DNA from: Paraburkholderia caffeinilytica
GTDB taxonomy: Bacteria; Pseudomonadota; Gammaproteobacteria; Burkholderiales; Burkholderiaceae
Reading direction: 5' to 3'
Length of the DNA stretch: 64,000 nucleotides
NCBI RefSeq assembly: GCF_003368325.1
Contig: NZ_CP031467.1
Location: 3,410,001 to 3,474,000, forward strand
Position 1 is the first letter of the stretch. Each line of letters starts with the position of its first letter. Shown here in pieces: positions 1,186-22,280 of the stretch. Below the pieces are notes generated by a model. It did no database searches. It saw nothing but the letters and a program-made list of their open reading frames with translations, and had not been told where the DNA came from. Both the position numbers and the translations under genes were made by a program.

Positions 1186-1893
1186 GTGGGTACGAAAGTC
1201 GAAGGGCAATTTCCGGCAGCAACGGCCCGTATGGAGAGGCCAGGGCGTCCACGTGAGTTTGGGCGTAAGCAGCAAAACCCAGTGCGCCGCTTCGGCGGCA
1301 TCGCAGTTGTTCTGCTCCTGCATATCGTGCTGATCTATGCACTTATCAATGGCCTTGCCACCAAGGTCGTGCAGGTCATCCAGCATCCAATCGAGACCAA
1401 AATCATCGAGCCGGTGAAGCCGCCTCCGCCGCCGCCGTTGCCCACCGTGCAATTGCCGCCGCCGAAGTTCGCACCGCCGCCGCCGCCGTTCGTGCCGCCG
1501 CCGGAAGTGCAGGTGCAAACGCCGCCGCAGCCGAGCATCACGCACCAGGCCGCACCGGTCGTGTCGGCACCCGCCGTGGCGCCAGCACCGCCGGCGCCTC
1601 CCGCGCCGAGCAAGCCCGTGAGCGCCGAAGTAGGGGTCGTGTGCCCGAACTCGGATCAGATCCGTTCGTCGATTCGCTACCCGAAGGAAGCGCAGGAGAA
1701 CAACGTGACGGGCGACGTGCTGATTGAATTTGTAGTCGACCCGCAAGGCCATATTACGAATGAACGTGTTGCCAAGTCGGCAGACGATTCCTCACTCGAC
1801 CGCGCGGCCTTCAACGCGGTCAAGCAGTTCACGTGCGTTTCCCAAGGCCAGGCTGTCCGTGTGCAAGTTCCGTTCTCGTTTAACCTGAACTGA
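1186..1893 (+). CDS. tonB: TonB energy-transducing protein
   Basis: TonB carries proton-motive energy from the inner-membrane ExbB/ExbD motor to outer-membrane receptors. The 235-residue product has a short basic cytoplasmic tail, one membrane segment (GGIAVVLLLHIVLIYALI, about residues 36-53), a long proline-rich periplasmic spacer (runs of PPPPP) and a C-terminal TonB domain (VTGDVLIEFVVDPQGHI to VPFSFNLN). I chose GTG at 1186 because GGAGG sits 7 bases before it; the frame stays open upstream to a TTG at 1078, but without a binding site and with an implausible N-terminal sequence. Two cysteines bracket the C-terminal domain (CPNSD and TCVSQ) and could form a disulfide. exbB starts 78 bases downstream, so co-transcription is likely. 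Confidence 0.93.
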   Translation: MGTKVEGQFPAATARMERPGRPREFGRKQQNPVRRFGGIAVVLLLHIVLIYALINGLATKVVQVIQHPIETKIIEPVKPPPPPPLPTVQLPPPKFAPPPPPFVPPPEVQVQTPPQPSITHQAAPVVSAPAVAPAPPAPPAPSKPVSAEVGVVCPNSDQIRSSIRYPKEAQENNVTGDVLIEFVVDPQGHITNERVAKSADDSSLDRAAFNAVKQFTCVSQGQAVRVQVPFSFNLN

Positions 1894-1971
1894 AACCCCA
1901 CGGGCCGTTCGGTACCGGTAGCGATTTATCAGTCTTGGTTTAGAAGTTGTACTAATGAACTTGGAGCAGGC

Positions 1972-2883
1972 ATGAAGAAGCGTACTCTCGCCGCATTGGC
2001 GGCAACCATGTTGTTCGCCGTAACCACGGTGGATACCTTTGTGGCACCGCAAATGGCCCACGCGCAAGCGAGCGACGCGACCGCGTCGGCTGCCGCCGCC
2101 ACCACAGCCACCGCTGCACCGCAAACGGCCGCCCCGGCCGCAGACGAAGCGACACCGCCGCCGGCGCCGGCCACGTCTGAAACCGTGAATAACCCGTACG
2201 GTCTCAGCGCGCTCTGGAAGAACGGTGACTTCGTTGCACGCTTCGTGCTGATTCTGCTGGTGCTCATGTCGATGGGCAGCTGGTACATCATGATCACCAA
2301 GTTCTTCGAGCAGTTCCGTGCGAACCGTCGTGCGAAGAGCGCCGACGAACAACTGTGGACTGCGCCGTCGCTGGCCGAAGGCACGAAGCTGCTCGACGAA
2401 GCGTCGCCGTTCCGCTTCATCGCCGAAACGGCCATCGAGGCAGGCGAGCACCACGACGAAGCATTGCTCGAAGCCGTCGACCGCAATACGTGGATCGATA
2501 CGTCGGTCGAGCGTGCGATTACCAACGTGTCGAACCGTTTGCAAGACGGTCTGGCTTTCCTCGGCACGGTCGGCTCGACAGCGCCGTTCGTTGGTCTGTT
2601 CGGTACGGTGTGGGGCATTTATCACGCGCTGACGGCAATCGGTATCGCGGGCCAGGCTTCGATCGACAAGGTCGCGGGTCCGGTGGGCGAGGCGCTGATC
2701 ATGACCGCGATCGGCCTTGCCGTCGCCGTGCCGGCGGTGCTTGGCTACAACTTCCTGGTTCGCCGCAACAAGTCGGTGATGGAGCGTGTTCGTGCGTTCG
2801 GCGCGCAACTGCACACCGTCCTGCTCGCCGGCAGCCGGCGCTCGGCGCGCGCTTCGGCTCGTCAAGCATCGCTGGTCCAATAA
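1972..2883 (+). CDS. exbB: ExbB proton-channel subunit (MotA/TolQ/ExbB family)
   Basis: ExbB forms the multimeric inner-membrane scaffold of the proton-driven Ton motor. The 303-residue protein has an N-terminal signal peptide (MKKRTLAALAATMLFA to AHAQA), an Ala/Thr/Pro-rich periplasmic stretch, and three membrane segments: FVARFVLILLVLMSMGSWYI, then the hallmark TVGSTAPFVGLFGTVWGI, then an Ala/Val-rich helix (ALIMTAIGLAVAVPAVL). A signal-bearing, long ExbB is usual for Burkholderia and some other proteobacteria. The ATG is preceded by GGAGCAGGC. exbD follows after 12 bases, so the pair is translated from one message. Confidence 0.95.
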   Translation: MKKRTLAALAATMLFAVTTVDTFVAPQMAHAQASDATASAAAATTATAAPQTAAPAADEATPPPAPATSETVNNPYGLSALWKNGDFVARFVLILLVLMSMGSWYIMITKFFEQFRANRRAKSADEQLWTAPSLAEGTKLLDEASPFRFIAETAIEAGEHHDEALLEAVDRNTWIDTSVERAITNVSNRLQDGLAFLGTVGSTAPFVGLFGTVWGIYHALTAIGIAGQASIDKVAGPVGEALIMTAIGLAVAVPAVLGYNFLVRRNKSVMERVRAFGAQLHTVLLAGSRRSARASARQASLVQ

Positions 2884-2895
2884 GCGGAGTCCGTC

Positions 2896-3318
2896 ATGGC
2901 TATGAGCGTTGGGCAGGATGATAACGACGAGGTCATCTCCAGTATCAACACCACGCCGCTCGTCGATGTGATGCTGGTTCTGCTGATCATCTTTCTGATC
3001 ACGATTCCGGTGGTGACGCATACGGTGCCGGTGCAATTGCCGAAGGAGACGATCCAGCCGCTGCAGACCACGCCCAAAAGTATTGTCATTGCGGTTAACC
3101 GCGACGGCGATTTCTTCTGGAACGAGAAGCAGGTGGATGCGCCTACGTTGCTGGCACGCCTGAAAACCGTCTCGGCCGTGACGCCGCAACCGGAAGTACA
3201 CGTTCGCGGCGACCAGAGCGCGCGTTATGAATTCATCGGCCGGGTTATTACCGCGTGCGAGCGTGCCGGTATCGCCAAGGTTTCGTTTATTACCGAGCCA
3301 CCCGCGCGTGGTGGCTAG
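2896..3318 (+). CDS. exbD: ExbD motor subunit (first copy)
   Basis: ExbD is the single-span inner-membrane partner of ExbB; its membrane aspartate carries the proton. The 140-residue protein has the family core INTTPLVDVMLVLLIIFLIT, in which the aspartate of PLVDVML is the conserved proton-carrying residue, followed by a periplasmic domain (VPVQLPKETIQP and onward). The ATG lies 12 bases after the exbB stop, with CGGAG upstream. A second exbD follows after a 150-base repeat array. Paired ExbD proteins in one operon are known from Xanthomonas-type Ton systems and often mark systems specialised for large or unusual substrates. Confidence 0.95.
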   Translation: MAMSVGQDDNDEVISSINTTPLVDVMLVLLIIFLITIPVVTHTVPVQLPKETIQPLQTTPKSIVIAVNRDGDFFWNEKQVDAPTLLARLKTVSAVTPQPEVHVRGDQSARYEFIGRVITACERAGIAKVSFITEPPARGG

Positions 3319-3320
3319 CC

Positions 3321-3465: not shown

Positions 3466-3474
3466 GAGATGATC

Positions 3475-3906
3475 ATGGGAATGAACGTATCTTCGGGTGG
3501 TGGCAGTTCCGAACCGGATGTGATGGTCGATATCAACACCACGCCGTTGATCGACGTGATGCTGGTGTTGCTGATCATGTTGATCATCACGATTCCGATC
3601 CAGACGCACGCCATCAAGATGAACTTGCCGGTCGGCAATCCGCCGCCGCCGATCACGCAGCCGGAAGTCGTGCAGATCGATATCGACTTCGACGGCACTA
3701 CGACCTGGAACGGCCAGCCGGTGCCGAACCGCGCGGCGCTCGAGTCGAGACTTGCGCAGGTGGCGGCCGAGCCGGTTCAGGCGGAAATCCATCTGCGGCC
3801 TAACAAGCTGGTGCCGTACAAGGATGTCGCGGAGGTGATGGCGTCCGCGCAACGACTGGGCGCGACGAAAATCGGCCTGATCGGCAACGAGCAGTACATG
3901 CAATAG
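3475..3906 (+). CDS. exbD: ExbD motor subunit (second copy)
   Basis: A second ExbD-family protein of 143 residues with the same core, INTTPLIDVMLVLLIMLIIT, including the membrane aspartate, and a periplasmic domain ending in IGLIGNEQYMQ. It differs from the first copy outside the core, so it is not a recent duplicate. Three in-frame ATGs lie at 3469, 3475 and 3481. AGGAG at 3464-3468 is 6 bases before the second, so 3475 is preferred; the first would leave no spacing. The binding site is provided by the end of the palindromic repeat array (GTCGACAGGAG). The TPR gene follows after 9 bases. Confidence 0.93.
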   Translation: MGMNVSSGGGSSEPDVMVDINTTPLIDVMLVLLIMLIITIPIQTHAIKMNLPVGNPPPPITQPEVVQIDIDFDGTTTWNGQPVPNRAALESRLAQVAAEPVQAEIHLRPNKLVPYKDVAEVMASAQRLGATKIGLIGNEQYMQ

Positions 3907-3915
3907 GAAAGTGGA

Positions 3916-5121
3916 ATGCTAACGATCCATCATCGGTTCAAGCGCGCGGTCATTGCGGCCGCTATCGGAGGGCTGTCCGCGCTCGTCGTGCTGCCGCTCA
4001 CGTCTCAAGCCGCCGACACTTTGCGGCCGGATGTGGCAAAGCCGCTGAATGCCGCGCAGGATCTGTATCGCGCGCACAAGTACAAGGACGCGTTGACGAA
4101 GATCGATCAGGCCGACGCGGTGCCGGGCAAAACGCCCTACGAAAGCTACATGATTCAGGAGATGCGCGGCGCTGCTGCGGCGGCGGCCGGTGAATCGGGT
4201 GTGGCCGCCCAGGCCTACGAAACCTTGCTAGGTTCAGGGCGCTTGACCGGTGCAGACGAGCAGCGCACCACCGCGGCGCTCGCAGGCATCTACTTCCAGC
4301 AGAGAAATTATGCGCAGGCCGTGAAGGTTGCGCAGCGCTACCTGAAGTCGGGCGGCGGCGATCCTGACATGCGCACTTTGCTGGTTCAGTCTTATTACCT
4401 GTCAAACGATTGCGGCAGCGTGGTGAGTCTGCTCAAGCCGAGCATCGATGCGCAAGTGCGCGCCGGTCACGCACCGGACGAGTCGCAACTGCAATTGCTC
4501 GGCACGTGCGCGCAACGGGTGAAAGACGACGCAACGTACCGCAGCACGCTCGAAAAGCTGGTTGCCTATCATCCGAAGCAGGCTTACTGGGACGATCTGT
4601 TCAACGCGATTCGCAGCAAGCCCGGCTATTCGTCGGCGCTGGATATCGACACCTTCCGCCTGCGCCGTGCAACCGGCTCGCTCAGTACAGCCGACGATTA
4701 TATGGAGATGACGCAGCTCGCGATCGTGGCCGGCACCACGGCCGAAGGGAAACAGGTCATCGATCAAGGCTTTGCGTCGGGCGTTCTGGGTCACGATGCG
4801 CAGGCAGATCGCGAGAAGCGGTTGCAGGCGCTCGCCGCGAAACGGGCGCAGGCGCCGGCCGATCCTGCGAACCCCGTCGCGCCGGTCGACCTCGGCTTCA
4901 ACCAGGTCTTCGCAGGGCAGGCCAAGCAGGGTCTGACCGCCATGGACGCCGCGATTGCGAAGGGCGGAATCGATCACCCGGATCAGGCGCAACTGCATCT
5001 CGGCGAGGCGTACTACATGGCGGGCGATAAGGCGCGCGCAGTGCAAGCCTTCCGTGCAGTGAAGGGTACCGACGGTTCGGCCGACCTCGCCCGGTTGTGG
5101 GTGCTGGTGGCGTCGAAGTAG
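3916..5121 (+). CDS. Secreted TPR protein of the Ton operon
   Basis: A 401-residue protein with an N-terminal signal sequence (membrane stretch AAAIGGLSALVVLPLTSQAA) followed by repeated helical hairpins. TPR-like units are visible at LNAAQDLYRAHKYKDALTKI, LAGIYFQQRNYAQAVKVA and LHLGEAYYMAGDKARAVQAF near the C-terminus. It is probably periplasmic. TPR proteins accompany TonB/ExbB/ExbD genes in several proteobacteria and are thought to dock Ton complexes with particular receptors; that role is inferred here from position only. It is the last gene of the tonB operon: the ATG lies 9 bases after exbD, with AGGAAAG upstream. Confidence 0.75.
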   Translation: MLTIHHRFKRAVIAAAIGGLSALVVLPLTSQAADTLRPDVAKPLNAAQDLYRAHKYKDALTKIDQADAVPGKTPYESYMIQEMRGAAAAAAGESGVAAQAYETLLGSGRLTGADEQRTTAALAGIYFQQRNYAQAVKVAQRYLKSGGGDPDMRTLLVQSYYLSNDCGSVVSLLKPSIDAQVRAGHAPDESQLQLLGTCAQRVKDDATYRSTLEKLVAYHPKQAYWDDLFNAIRSKPGYSSALDIDTFRLRRATGSLSTADDYMEMTQLAIVAGTTAEGKQVIDQGFASGVLGHDAQADREKRLQALAAKRAQAPADPANPVAPVDLGFNQVFAGQAKQGLTAMDAAIAKGGIDHPDQAQLHLGEAYYMAGDKARAVQAFRAVKGTDGSADLARLWVLVASK

Positions 5122-5376
5122 CGGCATCCCGGTACCGACATGTTTCATTCTGCGAAGTGCCTTCAAGGTATCCGTGCATCGAACCGGGAGGCACATTCTC
5201 GCCGTACGGGGCACGGATCGTCGCGGATACTCGGATGTGGTTGCGTGCGCAACCATCGCCAGGTTCGCGGCAAGAACGAACATGTCATGACGGTCGCCTT
5301 GATTGAGTCACTTACCGCGGCAACTAACCAGGCATTTCGCGCATGTCTTAGGGAGGATGTTGCACTCAATGAAACA
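5122..5376. other. Intergenic region between TPR gene and XRE-cupin gene
   Basis: About 250 bases without a credible gene. Short frames overlap here but have no binding site or recognisable product. AT content rises toward 5370, leading into the regulatory palindrome at 5377. Confidence 0.5.
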
Positions 5377-5397
5377 TAGTTTGGTTTTATCAAACTA
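5377..5397. promoter_or_regulatory. Candidate operator in front of the XRE-cupin gene
   Basis: A perfect 7-bp inverted repeat, TAGTTTG (5377-5383) and CAAACTA (5391-5397), with an AT-rich 7-base spacer. The size and symmetry fit a dimeric helix-turn-helix regulator, most simply the adjacent XRE-cupin protein acting on its own promoter. Confidence 0.5.
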
Positions 5398-5400
5398 ATT

Positions 5401-5429
5401 TTGACTACGGGATTCTGTCTTGCTATGGT
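5401..5429 (+). promoter_or_regulatory. Sigma-70-like promoter at the start of the XRE-cupin gene
   Basis: TTGACT (5401-5406) and TATGGT (5424-5429) are 17 bases apart and directly follow the candidate operator. The -10 hexamer overlaps the first ATG of the gene (5425), so either the start codon is further downstream or the real promoter lies upstream. Confidence 0.35.
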
Positions 5430-6000
5430 TTTGCCACTCGATAACAAGGCACAGGTCGCAGTTTCTATAGGAAGCAAAATCCGCGCGCTTCGCCAACGGC
5501 TCAAGCGCACACTGGATGAAGTGGCAACCACGGCGGGAATCTCCAAGCCTTTTCTGTCGCAGGTGGAACGAGGTCATGCAACGCCTTCGATCACATCGCT
5601 AGTTGGCATTGCTCGAGCTTTAGGTGTGACGGTGCAGTACTTCGTCGATACGCCCACCGAAGACAAATCGGTGCAAAGAGGAAGTGAGCTGAAGTACTTC
5701 GGGTTCGATGGAACCGCGAATCTGTTTGGACGGCTGACGAACCTGTCGGTTGGCAGCAAGCTGGAAGTGATTCTCGTCAGAATGCCGGTGGGGCAAAACC
5801 CGTCGGAAGTCACGACGCATGCAGGGGAAGAGTTCTTGTACGTGATGAGCGGCCAGATATCGCTCACGTTAGAAGGTACAACGTTCGTATTGCAGGCAGG
5901 TGACACCGCGCATTACGAGTCCACTGTGCCTCACGCCTGGTGCAATACCGCCCGCGAAGAAGCGGTGGTCGTCTGGGTGGGCACGCCACGATTGTTTTAG
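5425..6000 (+). CDS. XRE-family regulator with C-terminal cupin sensor
   Basis: A 191-residue transcription factor. An N-terminal XRE helix-turn-helix (IGSKIRALRQRLKRTLDEVA, then SKPFLSQVERGHATPS, about residues 13-66) is joined to a cupin domain (about 105-185; HAGEEFLYVMSGQISLTLEG and GDTAHYESTVPHAWCN). This is the SutR/PuuR-like architecture, in which a small ligand in the cupin barrel controls DNA binding. The frame is open from TTG 5401; ATG 5425 is the first ATG, but no good binding site precedes it, so the start is uncertain. It lies between the tonB operon and the receptor gene and is the natural regulator of this block. A palindrome (5377-5397) upstream could be its operator. Confidence 0.85.
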   Translation: MVLPLDNKAQVAVSIGSKIRALRQRLKRTLDEVATTAGISKPFLSQVERGHATPSITSLVGIARALGVTVQYFVDTPTEDKSVQRGSELKYFGFDGTANLFGRLTNLSVGSKLEVILVRMPVGQNPSEVTTHAGEEFLYVMSGQISLTLEGTTFVLQAGDTAHYESTVPHAWCNTAREEAVVVWVGTPRLF

Positions 6001-6380
6001 ATGCCTTTGCTCGATGCTTTCGTTGAAAGCGGTCATTCTGTATTTGTAAGTATTACTTAAAGTTCGATCGGGAATTGACAGGGATTGGAGTGTATTGCCT
6101 CGATATCCAGAGCCCGAAGTAGTAGAAGTGAAAACAATTAGAAAGCGCTGCGCATTTCGTTTGTAATAAATAAGTAGTCCGATATTGAAGTATCAGAAGT
6201 GTCTCGTCTTCCTGTCTGTATTTGCAATCTGGTGCGCTGTTGACCGGTTTGACGGGCAATGGGAGGCGGGCAGCTTTAACGGAGCGCGGCGCACGATCGC
6301 CGTATATCGAGTGGAGAGGTTCACAAGACCTCTCTTCACACAAACAGCAGTGGCCTTATTGACGAGCGGGAAGGGGAAAA
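6001..6380. other. Intergenic region upstream of the TonB-dependent receptor
   Basis: 380 bases, AT-rich between 6040 and 6190, with no credible gene. GGGAAGGGGAAAA immediately precedes the receptor ATG and is its ribosome binding site. I did not find a second copy of the TTTG-N7-CAAA operator here. Confidence 0.5.
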
Positions 6381-9116
6381 ATGAAACAGAGGGCATTGGC
6401 GTTGGCCATCAAAAGAATAATCTGGGCTGAACTGGCATTGTCGGCCGCAATCGTCGTACCGGCGTTTGCACAGAGCCAGCCGGCCGCCACCGGAACCGCG
6501 GCAGGCGCGACGACGGAGAGCACGCCCGCTGCGGCGCCAGCTCCGGCATCGGGCACCGCCGCGACACCGTCCGCGGACAACAACACCGCGACGCCGAGTG
6601 GCAAGGGCGTTCAGCAATTGAAGAAGTTCGAAGTGACCGGGTCGCTGATCCGTAGCTCCGACAAAGTCGGCTTCAACCAGGTTCAGACGGTTTCGCAGAA
6701 AGAAATTCAGAATAGCGGCGCCACGACTGTCGCAGATTTTCTGCGCGATACCGCCGCCAACTCCGCCAATAGCTGGAGCGAAGGTCAGGCCGGCAACTTT
6801 GCCGCGGGCGCGGCGGGTATCGCCCTGCGCGGCCTCAGCGAAAAGTACACACTGGTGCTGGTGGATGGACAGCGTGCGGCGCCGTTCGCGTTCTTTTCGA
6901 ACAGCGTTGACTCCTTCTTCGACCTGAACACGCTGCCGCTGAACTCGATCGATCGCATCGAAATCGTGAAGACCGGCGCAGTGTCGCAGTACGGCTCGGA
7001 TGCCGTCGCGGGCGTGGTCAATATCATCACGAAACACAACTATCAGGGACTGACGCTCGACGGCAGCTACGGCAGCGCCATCAACGGCGGTGGCGGCGCG
7101 GGCACGACCAAGTTCAGCGCGCTGGGTGGCTTCGGCGACCTCAACTCCGATCGCTTCAACGTGACGGCGGCAGCCAGCTACTACAAGTCGAATGGCATCA
7201 CGCTCGCGGACCGCGACTCGACTCGTAATCAGGACTTCACGAATCAGGCGGGTGGCTTCTCGCTGCTCGGGCCGTCGTACTGGAACCTACCCGGTGGGGG
7301 CGTGCAGGCGCTGAGCAACTGTCCGTTCGGCGGCTCGGTGCGTCCCGCAGCCACCAACTCGCTGACGGCGGGATCGGCCGGCACGGTCTGCGGCTTGAAC
7401 ACCGCCGAAGGCACGTCCATCGCACCGATGATGGAGCGTTTGAACGCGAAGCTTCACGCTGACTTCAAGATCAACGATCAGACCACCGCGTTCGCGGACT
7501 TCCTGGTCAGCAGCAACCACACCACCACGAACGACGGTCTGTGGGGCAACGTTGTCGGCAATCCGCAGGCCCCCGCACTCGTGTGGAACCCGCAGACGAA
7601 GCTGCTTACCCCGTTCAACTTCACGGTGCCGGCGAGCAATCCGTACAACCCGTTCGGCGTCGCCACGCCGCTCACCTATGCTTTCCCGAACACGATCGCG
7701 GAGAAGACGGATTCCGTGTACTGGCGCGCGTCTACGGGCGTCAAGGGGTCGTTCAACCTGCCGAACGGTGAATGGGATTGGGCGTCGTCGATCAGTCATT
7801 CGCAAAGCACGGTTTCGAACACCTATACGAACCAGCTGAACTCCTCCGTACTGAATAACATTTACCAGAACGGCACGCTGAATTTCGCAAATCCGGCGGC
7901 CACGCCGAACGCGTTCAACGGGCTGTACATGGACGCGAACAACCTGGGTATCTCGAAGCTCGATACGGTCGACGCAACGCTTTCGACACCGGAACTCTTC
8001 CATCTGCCGGCAGGTGACGTAGGCCTGGGGTTCGGTGCGCAGTTCACGCACCAGAGCGAAACGATGAATCCGGGTGGGGCGTTCGAAGACGGCCTGGTCA
8101 TCAACCCGAATCTCCAGACGGTGGACGGCCAGCGTAACGTTGCGGCGGTGTACTACCAGGTGGATATTCCGATTGTCCACAACCTGACGTTCAGCCAGTC
8201 GGGCCGTTACGACCACTATAGCGATGTCGGCGGCGCGTTCTCGCCGCGCTTCGCGCTGCGCTATCAACCGGTTCAGGCGCTGACGATGTACACGTCGTAC
8301 AGCCGCGGCTTCCGTGCGCCGACGTTCGTGGAGAACAGCAAGTCGCAAACGATCGGTCTGCAGGTGGACCCGGCCACCGGCCAGAACTACACGTCGATCA
8401 CGGAGGGCAATCCGAACCTGTCGCCGGAACGCACGAAGAACTTCAACATCGGCTTCGAACTGTCGCCGACGCGTACGACCGATGTGGGCCTCGACTGGTA
8501 CAAGATTCGCGTGGATCACGTGATCGGCCAGGGCACGCCTTCGCAGGTTGTCACCGACGCCAACGGCAACCTCCTGTACAAGGTGATCCCGTATTCGAAT
8601 CTGGGCTACCTCGACACAAACGGTTTCGAAGGCACGTTCCGTCAGGCACTGCCGACGAAGACCGCCGGTACGTTCACCCTGTCGGCTGACTGGGCATACG
8701 TGAACAGCTTCAAGATCGGTTTCCCGGGTGCATCGCCTGTGAACGGCGCGGGTAACAACTTCACCATCACGCAGCCGTTCGGCGGCAGCTTCCCGCGCTG
8801 GAGAGGCAACACCACGCTGGACTGGACGTACCACAAGTTTGACGCAGCGCTGACGTGGCAGTTCACGGGGCCGTACGCCCAGAATCTGTTGCCTGAGCCG
8901 AACAAAGTGGGGTCGTACAGCCAGTTCAATCTGATGATGACGTACACGGGCATCAAGAACTGGACGATCTATGGCGGCATCAACAATATCTTCAACCGCA
9001 CGCCGCCGTACGATCCGATCTTCGCGAACGGTACGCTGAATCAGACCGGCTACGACGAGTCGCTGTACTCGTACATCGGCCGTTTCGCCCAGATCGGCGC
9101 AACCTACAAGTTCTAA
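6381..9116 (+). CDS. TonB-dependent outer-membrane receptor
   Basis: A 911-residue receptor. It has a signal peptide (ALSAAIVVPAFAQ), a 45-residue Ala/Thr/Pro-rich linker, a likely TonB box at KKFEVTGSLIR, a plug domain (SGATTVADFLRD, GIALRGLSEKYTLVLVDGQR, IDRIEIVKTGAVSQYGSDAV), and a large beta-barrel closing with SYIGRFAQIGATYKF, whose terminal phenylalanine is the usual BAM signal. The V(T)GS.IR plug opening and the lack of a siderophore-type operon place it among the large Xanthomonas/Alteromonas-like receptors, many of which serve peptides or sugars rather than iron. It sits between the tonB operon and a Yej-type peptide importer, which makes a peptide-like ligand the best inference. A strong terminator follows. 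Confidence 0.92.
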   Translation: MKQRALALAIKRIIWAELALSAAIVVPAFAQSQPAATGTAAGATTESTPAAAPAPASGTAATPSADNNTATPSGKGVQQLKKFEVTGSLIRSSDKVGFNQVQTVSQKEIQNSGATTVADFLRDTAANSANSWSEGQAGNFAAGAAGIALRGLSEKYTLVLVDGQRAAPFAFFSNSVDSFFDLNTLPLNSIDRIEIVKTGAVSQYGSDAVAGVVNIITKHNYQGLTLDGSYGSAINGGGGAGTTKFSALGGFGDLNSDRFNVTAAASYYKSNGITLADRDSTRNQDFTNQAGGFSLLGPSYWNLPGGGVQALSNCPFGGSVRPAATNSLTAGSAGTVCGLNTAEGTSIAPMMERLNAKLHADFKINDQTTAFADFLVSSNHTTTNDGLWGNVVGNPQAPALVWNPQTKLLTPFNFTVPASNPYNPFGVATPLTYAFPNTIAEKTDSVYWRASTGVKGSFNLPNGEWDWASSISHSQSTVSNTYTNQLNSSVLNNIYQNGTLNFANPAATPNAFNGLYMDANNLGISKLDTVDATLSTPELFHLPAGDVGLGFGAQFTHQSETMNPGGAFEDGLVINPNLQTVDGQRNVAAVYYQVDIPIVHNLTFSQSGRYDHYSDVGGAFSPRFALRYQPVQALTMYTSYSRGFRAPTFVENSKSQTIGLQVDPATGQNYTSITEGNPNLSPERTKNFNIGFELSPTRTTDVGLDWYKIRVDHVIGQGTPSQVVTDANGNLLYKVIPYSNLGYLDTNGFEGTFRQALPTKTAGTFTLSADWAYVNSFKIGFPGASPVNGAGNNFTITQPFGGSFPRWRGNTTLDWTYHKFDAALTWQFTGPYAQNLLPEPNKVGSYSQFNLMMTYTGIKNWTIYGGINNIFNRTPPYDPIFANGTLNQTGYDESLYSYIGRFAQIGATYKF

Positions 9117-9144
9117 GGTCCGCTTGATTGGGCTGAAGAGTGCG

Positions 9145-9189
9145 CCGCTCCGGTTCCATATACTGTGGGAACCGGAGCGGTGTTTTTTT
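9145..9189 (+). terminator. Intrinsic terminator after the TonB-dependent receptor
   Basis: A perfect 13-bp GC-rich stem (9145-9157 with 9168-9180), a 10-base loop, and TGTTTTTTT directly after. A textbook intrinsic terminator; it separates receptor transcription from the Yej genes, at least in part. Confidence 0.92.
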
Positions 9190-9381
9190 GGCGAAGCATC
9201 ATAGGGCGGTAGTGCAGGCCGACTGCCGTTGCAATGAACCGGCGTGCGCGGACGATCACGTGAGACGGGCGCATGAGGCGTGTATATGAAGCGTCTCCAT
9301 GAGCGCTGTGCGTGCGGCGTGTCGCACGGCCGCAGGACGAATCGCGCGCGGGTCACGAGCCGGTGCGCACCGTATGGGCTG

Positions 9382-11349: not shown

Positions 11350-11357
11350 GGAACAGC

Positions 11358-15137: not shown

Positions 15138-16566
15138 CGAACGTTGGGCGCAGGCCGCCCGATCGCTTACGAGCCGCGCGGCGTTCTGGTCGCTGCGCAT
15201 TGTCGACGAACAGATCGACGATCACGAGATTCGCAACGACATCGCGCAACCCATGCGAACGGTGCGCGATCGTGGCGCGATGCTGATCGCATGGGCGGGC
15301 GCGGGCGCCGGCTACGCGGCCACCGCGAATCTGAGCGCCGCCGGCCTGCAGCAGGCGCTGGATCTCGCCACGGCCCGCGCGGAAGCGAGCGCGGCATTGT
15401 CGCTGATCGATCATCGCGAGGTGGCGCGCCCCGCGGTGAGCGGCCGCTATGTGTCGCCGAACGCGCAGCTTGCGTTGCCGCGCCGCGCCGAATGGCTGGA
15501 GCGCCTGAGCGTGGAATGCGCGGGCGCGAATCTCGATGCACGCATTGTCGAACGCGTCGCGGCCGTGCAGATCACGCATACCGATCAGCTCTACATCACC
15601 AGCGACGGCGTGCGGATCGATCAGCAGTTCCAGTTCGTGATGCCGCAGTTGAGCGTGGCCGCGCACGCGGACGGCGATACGCAGGTGCGCACCCTCGGCG
15701 GAAACTACGGCACCTTGGGGCAGGGCGGCATGGAAGTGCTCGCACGCTTCGGCTTCGACGGCTCGGGGGCGCGTGTCGCCAATGAAGCGCTGCAATTGCT
15801 GGCCGCGCCGAATTGCCCTTCAGGCAAGCGCGATTTGTTGCTGATGCCCGATCAGATGATGCTGCAGATTCACGAGTCGATCGGCCATCCGCTCGAACTC
15901 GATCGCATTCTCGGCGACGAGCGCAACTTTGCCGGCTGGAGTTTCGTCAAGAAAGACATGTTCGGCTCGTATCGCTACGGTTCGGAACTGCTGAACGTCA
16001 CCTTCGACCCGGAACTGTGCGAGGAAGCCGCCGCGTATGCATTCGACGACGACGGCACCGAAGCGAAAAAGCACTATCTGATCCGCGACGGCGTGCTCGA
16101 ACGTCCGCTCGGCGGCGCGCTTTCGCAGCAACGCGCGCAGATGGCGGGCGTGGCGAATTCGCGCGCGTCGAACTGGAACCGCGCGCCGATCGACCGCATG
16201 GCGAATCTGAACATCGAACCCGGCGAGCAGTCGCTGGAGCAGATGATCGGCAATATCGAACACGGCATTCTGATGCGCACCAACACGTCCTGGTCGATCG
16301 ACGACCATCGCAACAAATTCCAGTTCGGCTGCGAGTTCGGTCAACTGATCGAAAACGGCAAGCTGACCCAGGTCGTCAAACAGCCGAATTACCGCGGCAT
16401 TTCGGCGAATTTCTGGCGCAGCCTGAGCGCGGTGGGGAACGCGGATACGCGCGAGGTGTACGGCACGTCCATGTGCGGCAAGGGCGAACCGGCGCAGATC
16501 ATTCGCGTCGGCCATGCCTCGCCGGCCTGCGTGTTCAGCGGCATCGACGTGTTCGGAGGCGCCTGA
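15130..16566 (+). CDS. tldD: TldD-family zinc metalloprotease subunit
   Basis: TldD is the catalytic half of the TldD/TldE cytosolic protease, which in E. coli trims the microcin B17 leader and degrades CcdA and other unfolded peptides. This 478-residue protein carries HESIGH (residues 248-253), the HExxxH zinc motif, and MCGKGEPAQ near the C-terminus, whose cysteine (449) corresponds to the third zinc ligand known from the E. coli structure. The N-terminal domain (VRDRGAMLIAWAGAGAGYAA) is also typical. The ATG lies within the end of yejF (8-base overlap), so translation is coupled to the importer. Its own stop overlaps the start of the partner subunit (TGATG). Confidence 0.93.
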   Translation: MIDERWAQAARSLTSRAAFWSLRIVDEQIDDHEIRNDIAQPMRTVRDRGAMLIAWAGAGAGYAATANLSAAGLQQALDLATARAEASAALSLIDHREVARPAVSGRYVSPNAQLALPRRAEWLERLSVECAGANLDARIVERVAAVQITHTDQLYITSDGVRIDQQFQFVMPQLSVAAHADGDTQVRTLGGNYGTLGQGGMEVLARFGFDGSGARVANEALQLLAAPNCPSGKRDLLLMPDQMMLQIHESIGHPLELDRILGDERNFAGWSFVKKDMFGSYRYGSELLNVTFDPELCEEAAAYAFDDDGTEAKKHYLIRDGVLERPLGGALSQQRAQMAGVANSRASNWNRAPIDRMANLNIEPGEQSLEQMIGNIEHGILMRTNTSWSIDDHRNKFQFGCEFGQLIENGKLTQVVKQPNYRGISANFWRSLSAVGNADTREVYGTSMCGKGEPAQIIRVGHASPACVFSGIDVFGGA

Positions 16567-17927
16567 TGAGTCAATTCATGTCCGCGCGTTCCGCTTCGTC
16601 GATCGACTGGCAGCAGCATTTCACGTCGTTGGCCGACGCCATCGAACGCTTGCAGCAAGGCGCTGAAACCACGCTGAGTTCATTTGCCGGCGAACAGTCC
16701 GACTTTATCCGTTTCAACTCGGGCAAGGTGCGGCAGATCGGCAGCGTGTCGCAAGGCAAGCTGACTTTGCGCCTGATCGACGGCGCACGCCAGGCTTATT
16801 CGACGCTGACGGTATGCGGCGACCTGAAACAGGATCTGGACGATGTGAGCGCCGCGCTCGCCACCTTGCGTGAAAGCCTGCGCGGAGCGGCGGACGATCC
16901 GCATCTGTTGTTCGACACCTCGCAATGGCAACGCGCCACGCAACGTTCGGGCAAGCTGCCGGCGCCGGGCGGCTTGTTGCGCATCGTCGCCGAATGCGCG
17001 CAAGGACTGGATTTCGTGGGCTTTTACGCGGGCGGCACGATTGTGCGCGGCTTTGCGTCCACGGGCGGCAGCCGCGGCTGGTACGAAGTCGATAACTTCA
17101 ATTTCAGCTGGTCGCTCTACGATCCGAGCGGTCGCGCGATCAAAACCACGTACGCCGGCGACGACTGGAGCGACGCTGTTTTCGCGCGCAAGGTCGAGCA
17201 GGCCGCGGCGCGCCTGTCCGTGCTCGCGCGCACGCCGCGCAGCTTGGCGCCGGGGCGCTATCGCTCATATCTGGCGCCTGAAGCACTCGCCGAATTGCTC
17301 GGCGTGGCGGCATGGAGCGGTTTTTCCGCACGCGCTCAGGCGACGTCGCGCAGCGAGTTGTACAAGCTGCATGTGGGAGAAATCGTAGTCGACCCGCGCG
17401 TCACGATCAGCGAAGATCTGAATCTCGGCATTACACCCGGCTTCAACGACGACGGCTATTTGCGCGAAAGCGTCCCGTTGATTCAGGGTGGCCGCAGCGC
17501 CGAACGCCTGACCAATGCGCGCAGCGCGCGCGAGTACGGGCTGACGCCCAACGGTGCGCTGGCGAGCGAGTCGCCGGCGGCGCTCTCGATGCAAGCGGGC
17601 GACCTGCGGGAAGAGGACGTGCTGGCGAAGCTCGATAGCGGTCTCTACATCGGCAATCTCTGGTACGTGAATTTCTCGGACCGGATGAATTGCCGCCTGA
17701 CCGGCATGACGCGCTTCGCGACCTTCTGGGTCGAAAACGGGCAGATCGTCGCACCGCTCGAAGCCATGCGTTTCGACGACAGCCTATACCGTCTGCTCGG
17801 CAGCGAACTCGAGCAACTCGGCGCGCAAGCGGAGCTGCTATTGAGCGATTCGACATGGGGCGAGCGCGCCACGGGCGGCATGCAATTGCCCGGCATCCTG
17901 ACGAGGTCGTTCGAATTGACGTTATGA
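16566..17927 (+). CDS. pmbA: TldE/PmbA-family protease subunit
   Basis: This 453-residue protein is the non-catalytic partner in TldD/TldE heterodimers, forming the substrate tunnel. It shares the fold of TldD but has no HExxxH motif. Family features seen include SDFIRFNSGKVRQIGSVSQG, DPRVTISEDLNLGITPGFND and MTRFATFWVENGQIVAPLEA. The start is ATG 16566, overlapping the tldD stop; the same frame runs open back to 15813 across tldD, but that part is in the wrong frame for any product. A dedicated tldD-tldE pair beside a peptide importer is unusual, as most proteobacteria encode the housekeeping genes apart. A GNAT gene follows after four bases. Confidence 0.9.
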   Translation: MSQFMSARSASSIDWQQHFTSLADAIERLQQGAETTLSSFAGEQSDFIRFNSGKVRQIGSVSQGKLTLRLIDGARQAYSTLTVCGDLKQDLDDVSAALATLRESLRGAADDPHLLFDTSQWQRATQRSGKLPAPGGLLRIVAECAQGLDFVGFYAGGTIVRGFASTGGSRGWYEVDNFNFSWSLYDPSGRAIKTTYAGDDWSDAVFARKVEQAAARLSVLARTPRSLAPGRYRSYLAPEALAELLGVAAWSGFSARAQATSRSELYKLHVGEIVVDPRVTISEDLNLGITPGFNDDGYLRESVPLIQGGRSAERLTNARSAREYGLTPNGALASESPAALSMQAGDLREEDVLAKLDSGLYIGNLWYVNFSDRMNCRLTGMTRFATFWVENGQIVAPLEAMRFDDSLYRLLGSELEQLGAQAELLLSDSTWGERATGGMQLPGILTRSFELTL

Positions 17928-17931
17928 GCCT

Positions 17932-18513
17932 ATGAATCAAGAAATAAGAACAAAATCCAATTCTGGGAGCTTGCCTGAGGGCCTGACGCTGCGCGCATTG
18001 CGCGTGGCCGATGCGGAACAATTTCATGCCATGCAGCAGTTGCCGGTCGTGATGAACGGCAATCCTCATGCGCCGTTTCGAACGCTGGCCAGCACGCGCG
18101 AATACCTCGAAAAACTCGCAGCGCCCGAGATCCTGATCGCGGCAATGGTCGGCGACACGCTGGTCGGTGAAGCAGAGCTCACGCCTTTCAAGGGCCGCCG
18201 CGCGCATGCCGCGTCGCTCGGTATTGGCGTACACGACGCATGGCATCGGCGCGGCATCGGCAACGCGCTGATGACCGAGCTGCTCGATCTGGCCGATAAC
18301 TGGCTCGGTCTGCGTCGCCTCGAGTTGCATGTCTTCGCCGATAACCATGCGGCCCTTGCGCTCTATCGCAAGTTCGGCTTCGAGATCGAAGCGCATCAGC
18401 GTGGCGCCGTGTTGCGCCGTGGCGTGCTGATCGACTGCTATTTCATGGCGCGCCTGCGTGAGGCGGCGCCGTGGATGTCGACACCGTCAGCCGCCAACAC
18501 CGCAGCGGAATGA
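17932..18513 (+). CDS. GNAT N-acetyltransferase (first of two)
   Basis: A 193-residue acetyl-CoA-dependent acetyltransferase. The GNAT core is clear: the acetyl-CoA loop HRRGIGNALM, the following LLDLADNWLGLRRLELHVFA, and ALALYRKFGFEIE. The overall sequence resembles YhhY-type amino-acid N-acetyltransferases. It starts four bases after the tldE stop and ends four bases before the second GNAT, so it belongs to the same transcript. Its substrate cannot be read from sequence; the position suggests an amino group released by the TldD/TldE pair, in the way RimL acetylates processed microcin C. The C-terminal 20 residues (EAAPWMSTPSAANTAAE) are an unconserved tail. Confidence 0.88.
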   Translation: MNQEIRTKSNSGSLPEGLTLRALRVADAEQFHAMQQLPVVMNGNPHAPFRTLASTREYLEKLAAPEILIAAMVGDTLVGEAELTPFKGRRAHAASLGIGVHDAWHRRGIGNALMTELLDLADNWLGLRRLELHVFADNHAALALYRKFGFEIEAHQRGAVLRRGVLIDCYFMARLREAAPWMSTPSAANTAAE

Positions 18514-18517
18514 GACT

Positions 18518-19066
18518 ATGAAAGAAGAAACGTTACCAGGCGAGGCCGCACTCGACGATCGCATTACGGTTCGAGCGCTCGAATCGTCCGACATGGACGC
18601 GTTCGCCGACATCATGAGCCTGCCGGGCGCGCGGCGCGGCACGCTATCGGTCGGCTATCGCAGCCCTGAACAGCTGAAGGCGTGGTACGAGCGGCGCCTC
18701 GAAAGCGGCGTAAACATATGCGCGACCATCGGCGGGCGCGTGGTCGGCCACGCCGGGTTGGACGTTCACCGGCCCAGCCGCGCGCATTGCGCACATTTAG
18801 GATTGGCCGTGCACGACGCGTATCATGGGCGCGGTGTCGGCTCGGCGCTTCTGCAGGGGTTGATCGACTGCGCGGATGCGTCGCTCGGTTTGCGCCGCAT
18901 CGACCTCACCGTGTTTGTCGACAACGCGCCGGCGATCGCGCTGTACCGCAAGTTCGGCTTTGTCGAAGAAGGCCGATCGCGCGGTTTCGCGATGCGCGAC
19001 GGCGTACTGGCCGACGTGCTGCATATGGCCCGCCTTGTCGACGCACCGCGTCTCCAGACAATCTGA
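18518..19066 (+). CDS. GNAT N-acetyltransferase (second of two, YhhY-like)
   Basis: A 182-residue GNAT protein, paralogous to its upstream neighbour but diverged. Motifs: HGRGVGSALLQGLIDCAD (acetyl-CoA binding) and RIDLTVFVDNAPAIALYRKF, which is nearly the E. coli YhhY sequence at this site. YhhY acetylates free amino acids. I chose ATG 18518 because it follows the previous stop by four bases and starts a normal-length protein; the frame is open upstream inside the first GNAT gene. Two adjacent but different acetyltransferases suggest two related products to be modified, or broadened specificity. Confidence 0.87.
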   Translation: MKEETLPGEAALDDRITVRALESSDMDAFADIMSLPGARRGTLSVGYRSPEQLKAWYERRLESGVNICATIGGRVVGHAGLDVHRPSRAHCAHLGLAVHDAYHGRGVGSALLQGLIDCADASLGLRRIDLTVFVDNAPAIALYRKFGFVEEGRSRGFAMRDGVLADVLHMARLVDAPRLQTI

Positions 19067-19079
19067 ACGGATTTCCTGC

Positions 19080-22000
19080 GTGCCATTTTTCTTCATCGAC
19101 CGCCCGGTCTTCGCATGGATTGTCGCGCTCGCCATTGTCGTGGCGGGCGCGCTTGCCATACCGCAACTGCCGGTCGCGCAGTATCCGCGTCTTGCGCCGC
19201 CGCGCATCGTGATCAGCGCCGTCTATCCGGGAGCTGCCACCGAAGTAGTCGATGCCAATGTCGGCAGCATCATCGAGGAGAGTCTCGATGGCGCCGACAA
19301 TATGCTGTACTACGAAACGACCAGCGACAACCTCGGCAATCTCGAGATCGACGCGACCTTTGCGCCGGGGACCAATCCGGATCTCGCGATGGTCGACATC
19401 CAGAACCGTCTCAAGCAGGTCGAGTCGCGCTTGCCGCAACAGGTCGTGCAGCAGGGCATCAGCGTATTCAAGGCGGCCAATACGTTTCTGATGCTGGTCG
19501 CGCTGACTTCCACGGACGGCTCGCGCGATTCCGTGCAATTGAGCGACTACCTGAGCCGCTACGTGTTGCGCGAACTGAAGCGCGCACCGGGCGTGGGCGC
19601 GGCGGAGTTGTGGGACTCCGACGAAGCGTTGCGCATCTGGCTCGATCCGATGAAGCTGCGCGAGTACGGCCTTGGCGCCGCTGAAGTAAACGCCGCCATC
19701 GCCGCGCAGAACGCCACGGTAACGGCCGGCACGCTGGGCGACGCGCCGTTCGTTCCGGGGCAGCAATTGACGGCCTCGGTGAACGTGAAGGGGCAACTGA
19801 TCTCGCCCGCCGAATTCGGACAGATCGTGCTGAAGGCGTTGCCCGACGGCTCGGCGGTGCGCCTGCGCGACGTCGCGCGGGTCGAGCTTGGGCGTGACAA
19901 TTACTCGTTCTATTCGCGTCTGAACGGCAAGGCTGCGGCAACCGTCGGCATTCAACTTGGGCCGCGCGGCAATGCGCTCGAAACGTCGAATGCGATTCGC
20001 ACGCGACTCGCCGAGTTATCGAAAAGCTTGCCGTCCGGTGTCGCCGTCGAAATCCCATTCGACAACGCGCATTTCGTGCAGATTGCGATTCGTGAAGTGC
20101 TCGTCACGCTGGCGGAAGCGGTGGTGCTGGTGTTCTTCGTGATGTGGCTGTTCCTGCGCGATCTGCGCTACACGCTCGTGCCCACGGTGGTGATTCCGGT
20201 CACGTTGATGGGCGCGTTTCTCGCGATGTATGCCTGCGGCCTGTCGATCAACGTGTTCACGATGTTTGGCCTCGTGCTGGCCATCGGTATTCTCGTCGAC
20301 GATGCGATCGTGGTGGTGGAGAGCGTGCATCGCGTGATGGAAGAAGAAGGCCTGCCGCCGCGTGAGGCGACCCGTAAGGCGATGACACAGATCGGCGGCG
20401 CGATCGTCGGCGTGACTGCGGTGCTGACGGCCGTGTTCGTGCCGATGGCGTTCTTCCCGGGCGGTGTCGGCGGGATTTACCGGCAATTCGCGGTGTCGAT
20501 GATTGCGTCGATGCTGGTGTCGTCGTTCATGGCCTTGTCGTTGACGCCCGCGCTGTGCGCGAATCTGCTGAAAGCGCACAAGCACCCGGTGAGCCAGCGC
20601 GACGCCCGCCGTGGCCTGCCAGGCTTCGCGGCGCGGGCGGCGAGCCGGTTCACGTCCGGTTTCGACCGGGCCGCGAGCGGCTATCGCGGGCTGACCGCGC
20701 GGACCCTGCGCCGTATCGGGCCGATGCTGGCAATCTATGCCGTGCTGGTCGGCCTGTGCGCCGCGCTCTACTGGCAAATGCCCGGTGGCTTTTTGCCCAG
20801 CGAGGACGAAGGCCAGTTGCAGGTGATGGTGCAACTGCCGGCCGGTGCGACGCAGGCGCGTACGCTCGCGGTGGTCCAGCGGATGGAAAAGATCCTGCAT
20901 GCCGAGCCCGCGGTCGCACACGTCACCAGTGTGATCGGCTGGAGTTTCAGCGGCAGCGGTCAGAACGTGGCGATGGGTTTTGTCGAACTGAAAGACTGGG
21001 GCACACGCGACACCGACGCAATGACGTTGCGCGACCGCCTCAACGAGAAGTTCGACAAGATCCTCGACGGTAACGTGGAGGCGCAATTGCCGCCTTCCGT
21101 GCCGGGACTCGGGCACTCGGACGGCTTCGTGTTCCGGCTCGAAGATCGCGGCGGAGTCGGACTGGACGCGCTGAAGGCGGCGCGCGAGCGGCTGTTCGCG
21201 CAAGCCAAGACGAACCCCGCGCTGGCTTCGGTGCGTTCGGAGGATCTGCCGGATGCGCCGCGCGTCGAACTCGTCATCGATCGTGCGAAAGCGTACGCGC
21301 TTGGCGTGCCGTTCGACCGCATTGCCGATGTGCTGGGCAGCACCTTTGGATCCTTGTATATCGACGACTTTCCTGCCGGTGGCCGGATGCGCCGCGTGAT
21401 GATCTCCGCCGACGCCACCACGCGGATGACCGACGACGATCTGATGGCGCTCGCCGTGCCGAACTCGACGGGCGGCATGGTGCCGCTATCCGCGATTGCG
21501 GAACGCCACTGGAGCATCGGCCCGGTGATGCTGACGCGCTACAACGGCTATCCGTCGCTCGACGTGAGCGGCCACGCTGCGCCTGGCTACAGCTCGGGCG
21601 CGGCGATGGCGGAGATGGAGCGGCTCGCCGCTTCGTTGCCGGTCGGAATCTCGTATGACTGGGTCGACGCGGCGCGCGAAGAAACCGCCGCGGCACGGCT
21701 TACGCCGTTGCTGATCGGTTTGTCGCTGCTGGCCGTGTTCATGGCGCTGGCGGCCTTGTACGAAAGCTGGACGATCCCGCTTGCCGTGCTGATGGTCGTG
21801 CCGCTCGGCGTGATCGGCGCAATCGCCGCGATGCTGCTGCGGGGCATGCCAAACGACGTCTACTTCAAGGTCGGCATGATTACCGTCATCGGCCTCGCGG
21901 CGAAAAACGCGATTCTGATCGTGCAGTTCGCACGCGACCTGTATCGCCAGGGCCTGCCGTTGACGCGCGCCGTGAGCGACGCGGCCGCCGCGCGTTTCCG

Positions 22001-22280
22001 TCCGATCGTGATGACCTCGGCGGCGTTCCTGCTGGGCGTCGTGCCGTTGGTGGTGTCGAGTGGCGCGGGCGCGGAGAGCCGTCGCTCGATCGGCACCGGT
22101 GTGTTCGGCGGGGTGCTGGCGGCCACGCTGTTCGGCCTCGTGTTCGCGCCAGTCGCGTTTCATGCGGTCGCCTCGCTAACGTACAGCAGGCGGCGGCTCG
22201 CCGCGCTGCGGCGCAAGCGTGACGAGCGGCGCGCGCAGCGGGAGACGAGCGAAGGCGGCCGGTTGACGAATGGCCGATGA
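19080..22280 (+). CDS. RND inner-membrane efflux pump (HAE1 type), without adaptor or channel
   Basis: A 1066-residue proton-driven RND transporter. It begins VPFFFIDRPVFAWIVALAIV, the standard N-terminal membrane helix, has two large periplasmic domains and twelve membrane segments, and keeps the transmembrane-4 aspartate pair (GILVDDAIVVVE) needed for proton coupling. HAE1-type pumps export hydrophobic or amphiphilic compounds. The start is GTG 19080, 13 bases after the second GNAT; the frame is open upstream but only inside that gene. No membrane-fusion protein or outer-membrane channel gene is next to it, so it must borrow partners encoded elsewhere. A basic, Arg-rich tail (RRRLAALRRKRDERRAQRET) ends the protein. 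Confidence 0.92.
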   Translation: MPFFFIDRPVFAWIVALAIVVAGALAIPQLPVAQYPRLAPPRIVISAVYPGAATEVVDANVGSIIEESLDGADNMLYYETTSDNLGNLEIDATFAPGTNPDLAMVDIQNRLKQVESRLPQQVVQQGISVFKAANTFLMLVALTSTDGSRDSVQLSDYLSRYVLRELKRAPGVGAAELWDSDEALRIWLDPMKLREYGLGAAEVNAAIAAQNATVTAGTLGDAPFVPGQQLTASVNVKGQLISPAEFGQIVLKALPDGSAVRLRDVARVELGRDNYSFYSRLNGKAAATVGIQLGPRGNALETSNAIRTRLAELSKSLPSGVAVEIPFDNAHFVQIAIREVLVTLAEAVVLVFFVMWLFLRDLRYTLVPTVVIPVTLMGAFLAMYACGLSINVFTMFGLVLAIGILVDDAIVVVESVHRVMEEEGLPPREATRKAMTQIGGAIVGVTAVLTAVFVPMAFFPGGVGGIYRQFAVSMIASMLVSSFMALSLTPALCANLLKAHKHPVSQRDARRGLPGFAARAASRFTSGFDRAASGYRGLTARTLRRIGPMLAIYAVLVGLCAALYWQMPGGFLPSEDEGQLQVMVQLPAGATQARTLAVVQRMEKILHAEPAVAHVTSVIGWSFSGSGQNVAMGFVELKDWGTRDTDAMTLRDRLNEKFDKILDGNVEAQLPPSVPGLGHSDGFVFRLEDRGGVGLDALKAARERLFAQAKTNPALASVRSEDLPDAPRVELVIDRAKAYALGVPFDRIADVLGSTFGSLYIDDFPAGGRMRRVMISADATTRMTDDDLMALAVPNSTGGMVPLSAIAERHWSIGPVMLTRYNGYPSLDVSGHAAPGYSSGAAMAEMERLAASLPVGISYDWVDAAREETAAARLTPLLIGLSLLAVFMALAALYESWTIPLAVLMVVPLGVIGAIAAMLLRGMPNDVYFKVGMITVIGLAAKNAILIVQFARDLYRQGLPLTRAVSDAAAARFRPIVMTSAAFLLGVVPLVVSSGAGAESRRSIGTGVFGGVLAATLFGLVFAPVAFHAVASLTYSRRRLAALRRKRDERRAQRETSEGGRLTNGR

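Follow-up and report, generated by a model that had tools for sequence, protein, structure and literature searches.

Gene content and layout of the locus

The locus analysed here lies near the start of a 64,000-nucleotide stretch of the Paraburkholderia caffeinilytica chromosome (genome 8.32 Mb), hereafter the window, and consists of 16 intact open reading frames (ORFs), all on the + strand, between positions 1186 and 22280 (Table 1). It combines a TonB motor with a TPR protein, an XRE-cupin regulator, a TonB-dependent receptor, a YejABEF-type peptide importer, a TldD/TldE-like protease pair, two GNAT acetyltransferases and an RND permease. A preliminary description had listed these 16 genes in this order on one strand and had noted their tight packing from yejA onward; all of them were found intact and in place, and the junctions from yejA to the RND gene measured, in order, +8, -47, -4, -8, -1, +4, +4 and +13 bases. 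The genes upstream of yejA are not one tight operon, because gaps of approximately 300, 380 and 265 bp precede the regulator, the receptor and yejA, respectively, and a terminator-like repeat follows the receptor. This repeat (9145-9189), which was read by eye, comprises a 13-bp stem and then T7 on the 3' side of the receptor, and its arms are kept in 15 relatives that share the receptor type. The terminator scan, which considered loops of 3-8 only, did not list it, its loop being longer, and the promoter and terminator scans in general returned no more sites than were found in shuffled sequences. A GTTTG-N7-CAAAC element before the regulator was rejected as a conserved operator, as it occurred in 6 of 56 relatives and in none of 80 receptor upstream regions and was equally common in shuffles.

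Table 1. Coordinates of the features of the locus, numbered from the first base of the window.
Feature	Position	Strand	Remarks
tonB	1186-1893	+	GTG start; Pfam TonB_C 61.6 bits (cut-off 24.6)
exbB	1972-2883	+	Pfam MotA_ExbB 111.9 bits
exbD, copy 1	2896-3318	+	Pfam ExbD 102.5 bits
exbD, copy 2	3469-3906	+	Pfam ExbD 90.2 bits
TPR protein	3916-5121	+	TPR_16 41.6 bits; adjoins exbD2 in relatives and moves with the motor genes
XRE-cupin transcriptional regulator	5425-6000	+	ATG start; longer ORF from 5401; HTH_3 and Cupin_2 above cut-off
Putative leader RNA with two hairpins, receptor mRNA	6286-6335	+	Hairpins 6286-6303 and 6313-6335; covariation
TonB-dependent receptor	6381-9116	+	Plug and barrel domains above cut-off; Cir/BtuB/FepA-type fold
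Terminator-like inverted repeat and T run	9145-9189	+	By eye; arms kept in 15 relatives of the same type
yejA, solute-binding protein	9382-11349	+	SBP_bac_5; start placed by eye (ORF list start, 9280)
yejB permease	11358-12410	+	BPD_transp_1 118.3 bits
yejE permease	12364-13479	+	BPD_transp_1 113.9 bits; OppC_N
yejF, fused double ATPase	13476-15137	+	Two ABC_tran stretches in a 555-aa protein, 220.7 bits
tldD-like metalloprotease	15130-16566	+	PmbA_TldD_3rd 103.5 bits; HESIGH and CGKGEP intact
tldE-like partner	16566-17927	+	PmbA_TldD_3rd 95 bits; without HExxxH
GNAT acetyltransferase 1	17932-18513	+	Acetyltransf_1 66.6 bits
GNAT acetyltransferase 2	18518-19066	+	Acetyltransf_1 72.2 bits
RND (HAE-1) permease	19080-22280	+	GTG start; ACR_tran 1076 bits; NF000282 1324.9 bits (cut-off 1250)

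The protein family scans covered the 20 proteins between 1186 and 26257. The receptor has the plug and the barrel of a TonB-dependent transporter; its structural model had a mean confidence (pLDDT, predicted local distance difference test) of 70.2, with low values for the first 100 residues. Siderophore, B12 and colicin receptors matched this fold alike, so that no ligand could be inferred from it. The best structural matches of YejA were the family-5 binding protein 4ony and the YejA structures 7z8e, 8fss and 7atr (E 1e-98 to 1e-104). The importer shares the A-B-E-F order, the YejA-type binding protein and the fused YejF with the YejABEF systems of E. coli, S. meliloti and P. aeruginosa (NppA1A2BCD). 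Unlike in those systems, it is tied to a receptor, and its YejA is a paralogue that is 50% identical to the other, freestanding YejA of the same genome.

The tldD and tldE genes are the third such pair of the genome, canonical TldD and PmbA being encoded elsewhere. The locus TldD aligns to the E. coli TldD structure 5nj5, and the HExxxH and CGKG motifs were present in TldD of 89/89 relatives, HExxxH being found in TldE of 0/89; the cysteine of the CGKG region belongs to what we take to be the metal-ligand region. The motif pattern and the adjacency of the pair are as in E. coli TldD/TldE, but the scores fall far under the NCBIfam equivalog cut-offs (79.1 vs 513 bits for TldD and 19.1 vs 438 bits for PmbA), and the locus pair can, judged by its sequences, be regarded as a separate subfamily. 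Both GNATs, which are 42% identical to each other, had PRK10140 (YhhY) as their best NCBIfam match, at 100.6 bits for GNAT 1 (cut-off 236) and at 115 bits, likewise under the cut-off, for GNAT 2. RimL (PRK10151) scored 21.8 vs 184 bits for GNAT 2 and was not listed for GNAT 1; these family scores rule out RimL-like enzymes, and the analogy with RimL that had been drawn in the preliminary description does not hold. A rough count of GNAT motifs (36 and 48 of 65) relied on a pattern that was probably too strict and was not used. The RND protein is an HAE-1 permease by its family score, and no membrane-fusion or outer-membrane pump partners were found among the 20 proteins scanned.

Inheritance of the locus in the genus and beyond

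Among 144 Paraburkholderia genomes, 89 carried tldD of this subfamily and 82 the cluster-type yejA; the two genes were found together in 76 genomes, tldD only in 13, yejA only in 6 and neither in 49 (Fisher p ~1e-19, kinship uncorrected). A co-oriented yejA was located 3.7-5.1 kb upstream of 71 of the 90 tldD copies. The linkage of the two genes is not due to chance, and the scattering of the genes among relatives, which had been set as the test of the first interpretation, was not observed for these 71 copies. In a draw of 60 genomes from the family, the locus was present in four and it is therefore an accessory trait. The nearest named locus, with a TldD identity of 97%, is that of P. elongata.

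Stretches of up to 20 kb were compared for the 89 other tldD copies and for 11 copies of yejA that had no tldD close by, with gene presence determined by protein matching; since stretches or contigs end, figures for genes at the locus edges are lower bounds. A yejB gene was found beside tldD in 71 of the 89 copies, a count that is not identical to the 71 above as the two differ by the window's own locus and by L138, in which yejA is on a separate contig. Of these 71 linked loci, 70 contained the receptor, 65 a GNAT match, 65 RND, 53 the regulator and 52 ExbD2; two separate GNAT ORFs were present in 63 loci, and L097 and L178 resolve to one. All five genes were absent from the stretches fetched around the 18 tldD copies without yejB, 13 of which formed a single clade in a quick TldD tree, with the others placed as groups of 3 and 2 among the linked copies. 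As for the 11 yejA copies without tldD, L189 is a lone binding protein and the other 10 carry the receptor and yejABEF; GNATs of this family were found in none of the 11 and RND in two (L186 and L188), in which GNAT-like genes of a different kind were seen by eye further along. Within the genus, the receptor accompanies yejABEF at 80 of 81 loci (70/71 with and 10/10 without tldD), on the opposite strand in 7 of the 80, and the only locus without it, L138, begins at a contig end. In L191 and L193, the receptor-yejABEF unit without tldDE adjoins two genes that, by eye, encode an AraC-type regulator and a creatinase-like protein, which suggests another use of the import unit.

The position of the motor varied. 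It was found upstream of the regulator, between the receptor and yejA as a tonB-exbB-exbD-exbD-TPR set (L122, L150, L186, L188 and L226) or past the RND gene on the opposite strand (L018). In 7 of the 71 linked loci (e.g., L015 and L116), a different ExbD, 27-29% identical, lies between the receptor and yejA; in L015 (2335-3403), it stands beside an ExbB-like gene identified by eye. A motor of this type also occurs outside the locus: the same genome has a second TonB-ExbB-ExbD-ExbD set (L232, G000:C2:3796000-3815900), close to a different TonB receptor and to a gene that by eye resembles a non-ribosomal peptide synthetase. The downstream genes varied as well: L116, L128, L130 and L133 lack the GNATs and RND, L141 and L143 lack RND, and L101 and L135 lack the GNATs alone. 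In L116, the downstream neighbours known from the window (AraC, RmlC and EamA) directly follow tldE, and GNAT-GNAT-RND is therefore a removable block.

Outside the genus, five loci with yejABEF (L026 and L030 from Burkholderia, L226, L227 and L228) have RND after tldE and no GNAT match, and the receptor match of L227 is weak and partial. On account of these loci, together with L101 and L135, the GNAT pair is considered to be an addition. In L027 (9599-10000) of Burkholderia paludis, tldDE-RND is kept behind a yejF remnant, the importer having been lost. A class-wide draw of 369 genomes yielded TldD of this type at E up to 1e-90 in 27, including the window; in the 26 other loci, a peptide ATP-binding cassette (ABC) importer was found only beside L225 and the receptor was matched in none, four of the stretches being <9 kb. 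Among the 58 named loci with a TldD identity of 66% or less (L032-L089), five have a receptor beside tldDE (L032, L033, L034, L037 and L041) and six a peptide ABC importer that belongs to a different subfamily (L033, L037, L039, L041, L054 and L061), and L039 and L054 have an additional RND with its fusion protein. The Pseudomonas loci of this set (L038, L044, L048-L089) contained an MFS exporter match within the stretch in 31 of 34 tldDE loci; these 31 had no yejB, yejE or receptor match, and two of the remaining three end at contig ends. By eye, the exporters resemble DHA2 and, where listed, are placed downstream of tldE. TldDE of this subfamily is often found alone, often by exporters and repeatedly by importers. 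As a control, the second YejABEF, the canonical TldD and PmbA of the same genome were examined, and neither a receptor nor ExbB/ExbD, a GNAT or RND was matched in the 20 kb fetched around them.

The locus is modular, with the receptor and yejABEF near-inseparable, tldDE occurring also on its own and the GNATs added. In the preliminary description, the genes were read as a full set that forms one route for uptake, cleavage and modification. A co-inherited locus for uptake and cleavage is supported by our data, and the indivisibility of the set is not, considering the 10 loci with the receptor and yejABEF that lack tldDE, the tldDE pairs without an importer (18 loci in the genus and 25/26 class-wide) and the dispensable GNATs.

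The exchanged receptor and its leader RNA

Two features that were overlooked in the preliminary description, the exchange of the receptor and an RNA leader, emerged from the comparison of the loci, and these are the unexpected ones; the combination of a TonB receptor with a peptide importer is of a known kind. The receptor was compared in 71 loci (70 and the window), among which 162 pairs had a TldD identity of 95% or more. In these pairs, the receptor identity was 85% or more in 111, 65-85% in 6 and <65% in 45, and the minimum identities (%) of the other proteins were 78 for yejA, 95 for both yejB and yejE, 89 for yejF and tldE, 91 for RND, 86 for the regulator, 88 for exbB, 82 for TPR, and 67 and 60 for the GNATs. 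Average-linkage clustering at a distance of 30% distinguished eight receptor types with 31, 23, 8, 4, 2, 1, 1 and 1 members, which required 18 changes on the YejB+YejF+TldD+TldE tree (least possible 7; shuffled mean 33.9).

The DNA identity of the window to L097, which has another type, was 80-97% up to about 6470, 41-73% at 6669-9669 and 89% and more beyond; the profile against L104 was similar, as was that against L098 apart from an extra drop at 5069-5469 before the regulator. Against L096, which has the same type, identity was 78-91% across the receptor and 65-70% in the gap before yejA, and the drop was absent between L104 and L097, which are mutually of the same type. Based on these profiles, the edges of the cassette are the end of the signal-peptide codons and a point near the yejA start, about 6470-9470; the signal peptide is conserved and the mature part exchanged. 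In the 40 loci with other types, identity to the window's receptor was 0.67 in the plug, 0.59 in the barrel strands and 0.46 in the other barrel residues (0.90, 0.85 and 0.77, respectively, within its own type). A donor within the same genome was rejected, since the nearest paralogue is only 34% identical over a partial length, and the exchange therefore occurs between strains. The diversity of the receptor is the result of recombination of receptor bodies between strains. In L030 (2-4138), from Burkholderia singularis, two receptors that are 57% and 78% identical to that of the window stand in tandem, the first being cut by the end of the stretch; it is possible that they are a snapshot of a cassette exchange. 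Co-variation of the receptor type with yejA and the GNATs was not accepted, being inconsistent across identity bins: at a TldD identity of 95% or more, yejA identity was 93 vs 89 and that of GNAT 1 was 87 vs 79 depending on the receptor type, and the effect was absent or slight at 90-95%.

For the leader, 80 receptor ORFs and that of the window were considered, and those with an (M/V)KQR start and enough sequence gave 62 distinct leaders of 140 bases, 44 of which, from seven of the eight receptor types, were aligned. The alignment folds into two hairpins, with changes on both sides in 6 of 15 pairs (mean of 3.1 in shuffles; reached in 1 of 500) and in 23 alignment cells vs 5.1 in shuffles. The cells were paired in 96.9% of cases vs 46-57% for slid partners, a control that favours a structure derived from the same alignment. 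Taken together, this covariation constitutes good, if not final, proof for the predicted two-hairpin structure. A search of the whole genome with the model gave a single clear site at 6286-6335, the next having an E of 0.02. Of the 26 stretches outside the model, 19 matched at E up to 1, many of them over short segments on the ribosome-binding site and signal-peptide codons, and five reached 49 bits or more (L185; L178, which has the eighth receptor type; L190; L228; L026). In the same search, no match was found in L027, L226, L005, L195, L034, L037 and L041, and a scan of 1-24000 against Rfam gave nothing at or above a gathering score.

A candidate route for the uptake and cleavage of peptides

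Sequence and inheritance establish an exchangeable receptor that is tied to YejABEF and in most cases has an ExbBD motor of its own close by, and this unit is usually joined to the third TldD/TldE and RND and, in most Paraburkholderia loci, to the GNATs. The interpretation that we favour, and hold to be probable, is that the locus is a dedicated route for the uptake and cutting of an exogenous peptide with disposal of the product. The receptor would admit to the periplasm a peptide too large for porins, YejA would bind it there and YejBEF would carry it inward, where TldDE would cut it. The RND pump may then expel a residue that is useless or harmful to the cell, after N-acetylation by the GNATs where these are present; YhhY is presumably an amino-acid acetyltransferase, an activity that would fit the N-acetylation of an amino acid once released. 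Control of the locus would lie with the XRE-cupin regulator and the receptor's leader RNA. We infer the order of action, the disposal role of the GNATs and RND, and the class of the ligand from the sequences. As for the cargoes named in the preliminary description (a ribosomally synthesised and post-translationally modified peptide, a peptide siderophore or a peptide antibiotic), nothing was found in their support.

Because the receptor body is exchanged and the importer and protease stay constant, each strain probably captures its own members of a single peptide class, and ligand diversity is the simplest reason for the receptor exchange. More tentatively, since we regard it as rather less than an even chance, a fixed YejABEF-TldDE-RND chassis, with a conserved signal peptide and a mostly conserved leader, might run traded receptor cassettes, exchanged by recombination, so that each strain captures and dismantles a different one of a family of peptides that its neighbours make. 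Several observations weigh against the route as proposed. The conserved terminator-like repeat between the receptor and yejA means that the two may be expressed separately, and the diversity of the receptor could result from escape from phages or bacteriocins. The link between receptor type and the yejA and GNAT sequences is absent or slight at a TldD identity of 90-95%, four loci (L116, L128, L130 and L133) do without the GNATs and RND and two (L141 and L143) without RND, and tldDE is not tied to the importer everywhere, as the 18 loci of the genus and the 25 of 26 class-wide loci without it demonstrate.

Alternatively, the locus could be a looser assembly, in which receptor-yejABEF is an import system and tldDE, the GNATs and RND form a separate cytoplasmic module for quality control and efflux that merely lies downstream. 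Each half is found alone, the Pseudomonas tldDE loci with an MFS exporter dispense with yejB, yejE and a receptor in 31 of 34 cases, L116 indicates that GNAT-GNAT-RND is removable, and the terminator-like repeat follows the receptor. However, the reading frames overlap from yejB through tldE, GNATs of this family occur solely where both halves meet (65/71 with both, 0/18 with tldDE alone and 0/11 with yejA alone), and in Oxalobacteraceae and further Betaproteobacteria tldDE is paired with peptide importers of other kinds. We consider such an assembly unlikely. Similarly doubtful is a metallophore route, in which a peptide siderophore or another metal-peptide complex enters through the receptor and YejABEF, TldDE frees the metal and the pump recycles the ligand. 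Siderophore receptors are polymorphic, which the exchange of types resembles, and the top structural matches of the receptor include many of them (Cir, PirA, PfeA and FptA). In addition, YejA is closely related to MbnE (5icq, E 2.4e-96), a binding protein that, according to PMC10128002, binds copper-methanobactin, but the YejA structures score 332-354 bits vs 327 bits for MbnE. When compared with a 19-bp Fur consensus, the regions before tonB, the regulator, the receptor and yejA agreed at no more than 10, 10, 10 and 9 of 19 positions, respectively; a match of 11/19 lies further upstream, at 1-700, and 349 positions of the window reach 10, which makes these values background. Moreover, neither a reductase nor a sigma/anti-sigma pair nor a signalling domain at an N-terminus was found among the 20 proteins scanned.

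It is very improbable that the peptide is self-made, with TldDE maturing it, the pump exporting it and the receptor taking it up again or sensing it. Exporters do recur beside tldDE, and a title cited in PMC9239234 presents TldDE as an activator of Yersinia microcin C inside producers. Contrary to this explanation, the scanned proteins include no modification enzyme, and the intergenic stretches 5122-5360, 6001-6270 and 9190-9330 are poorly conserved among relatives, the search for precursor genes having been confined to the locus; short mechanical ORFs are present in 9117-9381.

The favoured route for exogenous peptides can be compared with several described systems. SppR-SppABCD of P. aeruginosa reportedly combines a receptor and an ABC importer of the peptide type. 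By its title, cited in PMC12728205, this is a putative xenosiderophore transporter; it is likened to our locus by description alone, and TldDE, GNATs and RND are not known to be part of it. Uptake via YejABEF is reported for microcin C in PMC9239234 and for phazolicin in PMC10128002. In the former, MccE2 acetylates processed microcin C and thereby inactivates it; MccE2 and RimL share with our GNATs the superfamily and a place after peptide processing, with MccE2 being likened by superfamily only. According to PMC10924461, a YejA structure study from 2024, large YejA ligands must either arise in the periplasm or cross the outer membrane by an unknown system. The inheritance of the receptor next to YejABEF in 80/81 loci makes this question testable, and, if our interpretation is true, the receptor would be the missing outer-membrane partner through which importers of the YejABEF type obtain peptides that exceed the size limit of porins. 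A TldDE subfamily that is still poorly understood would also be linked to imported peptides rather than to the maturation of the cell's own, and the exchange of receptors on a constant chassis offers matched natural strain pairs (e.g., L096/L097) for finding the ligands. No equivalent of the locus was found among the literature matches listed, as judged by titles and the beginnings of abstracts. One of them, PMC5209427, reports that four genes likened to the microcin B17 processing peptidases were upregulated in a bacterium facing a fungus.

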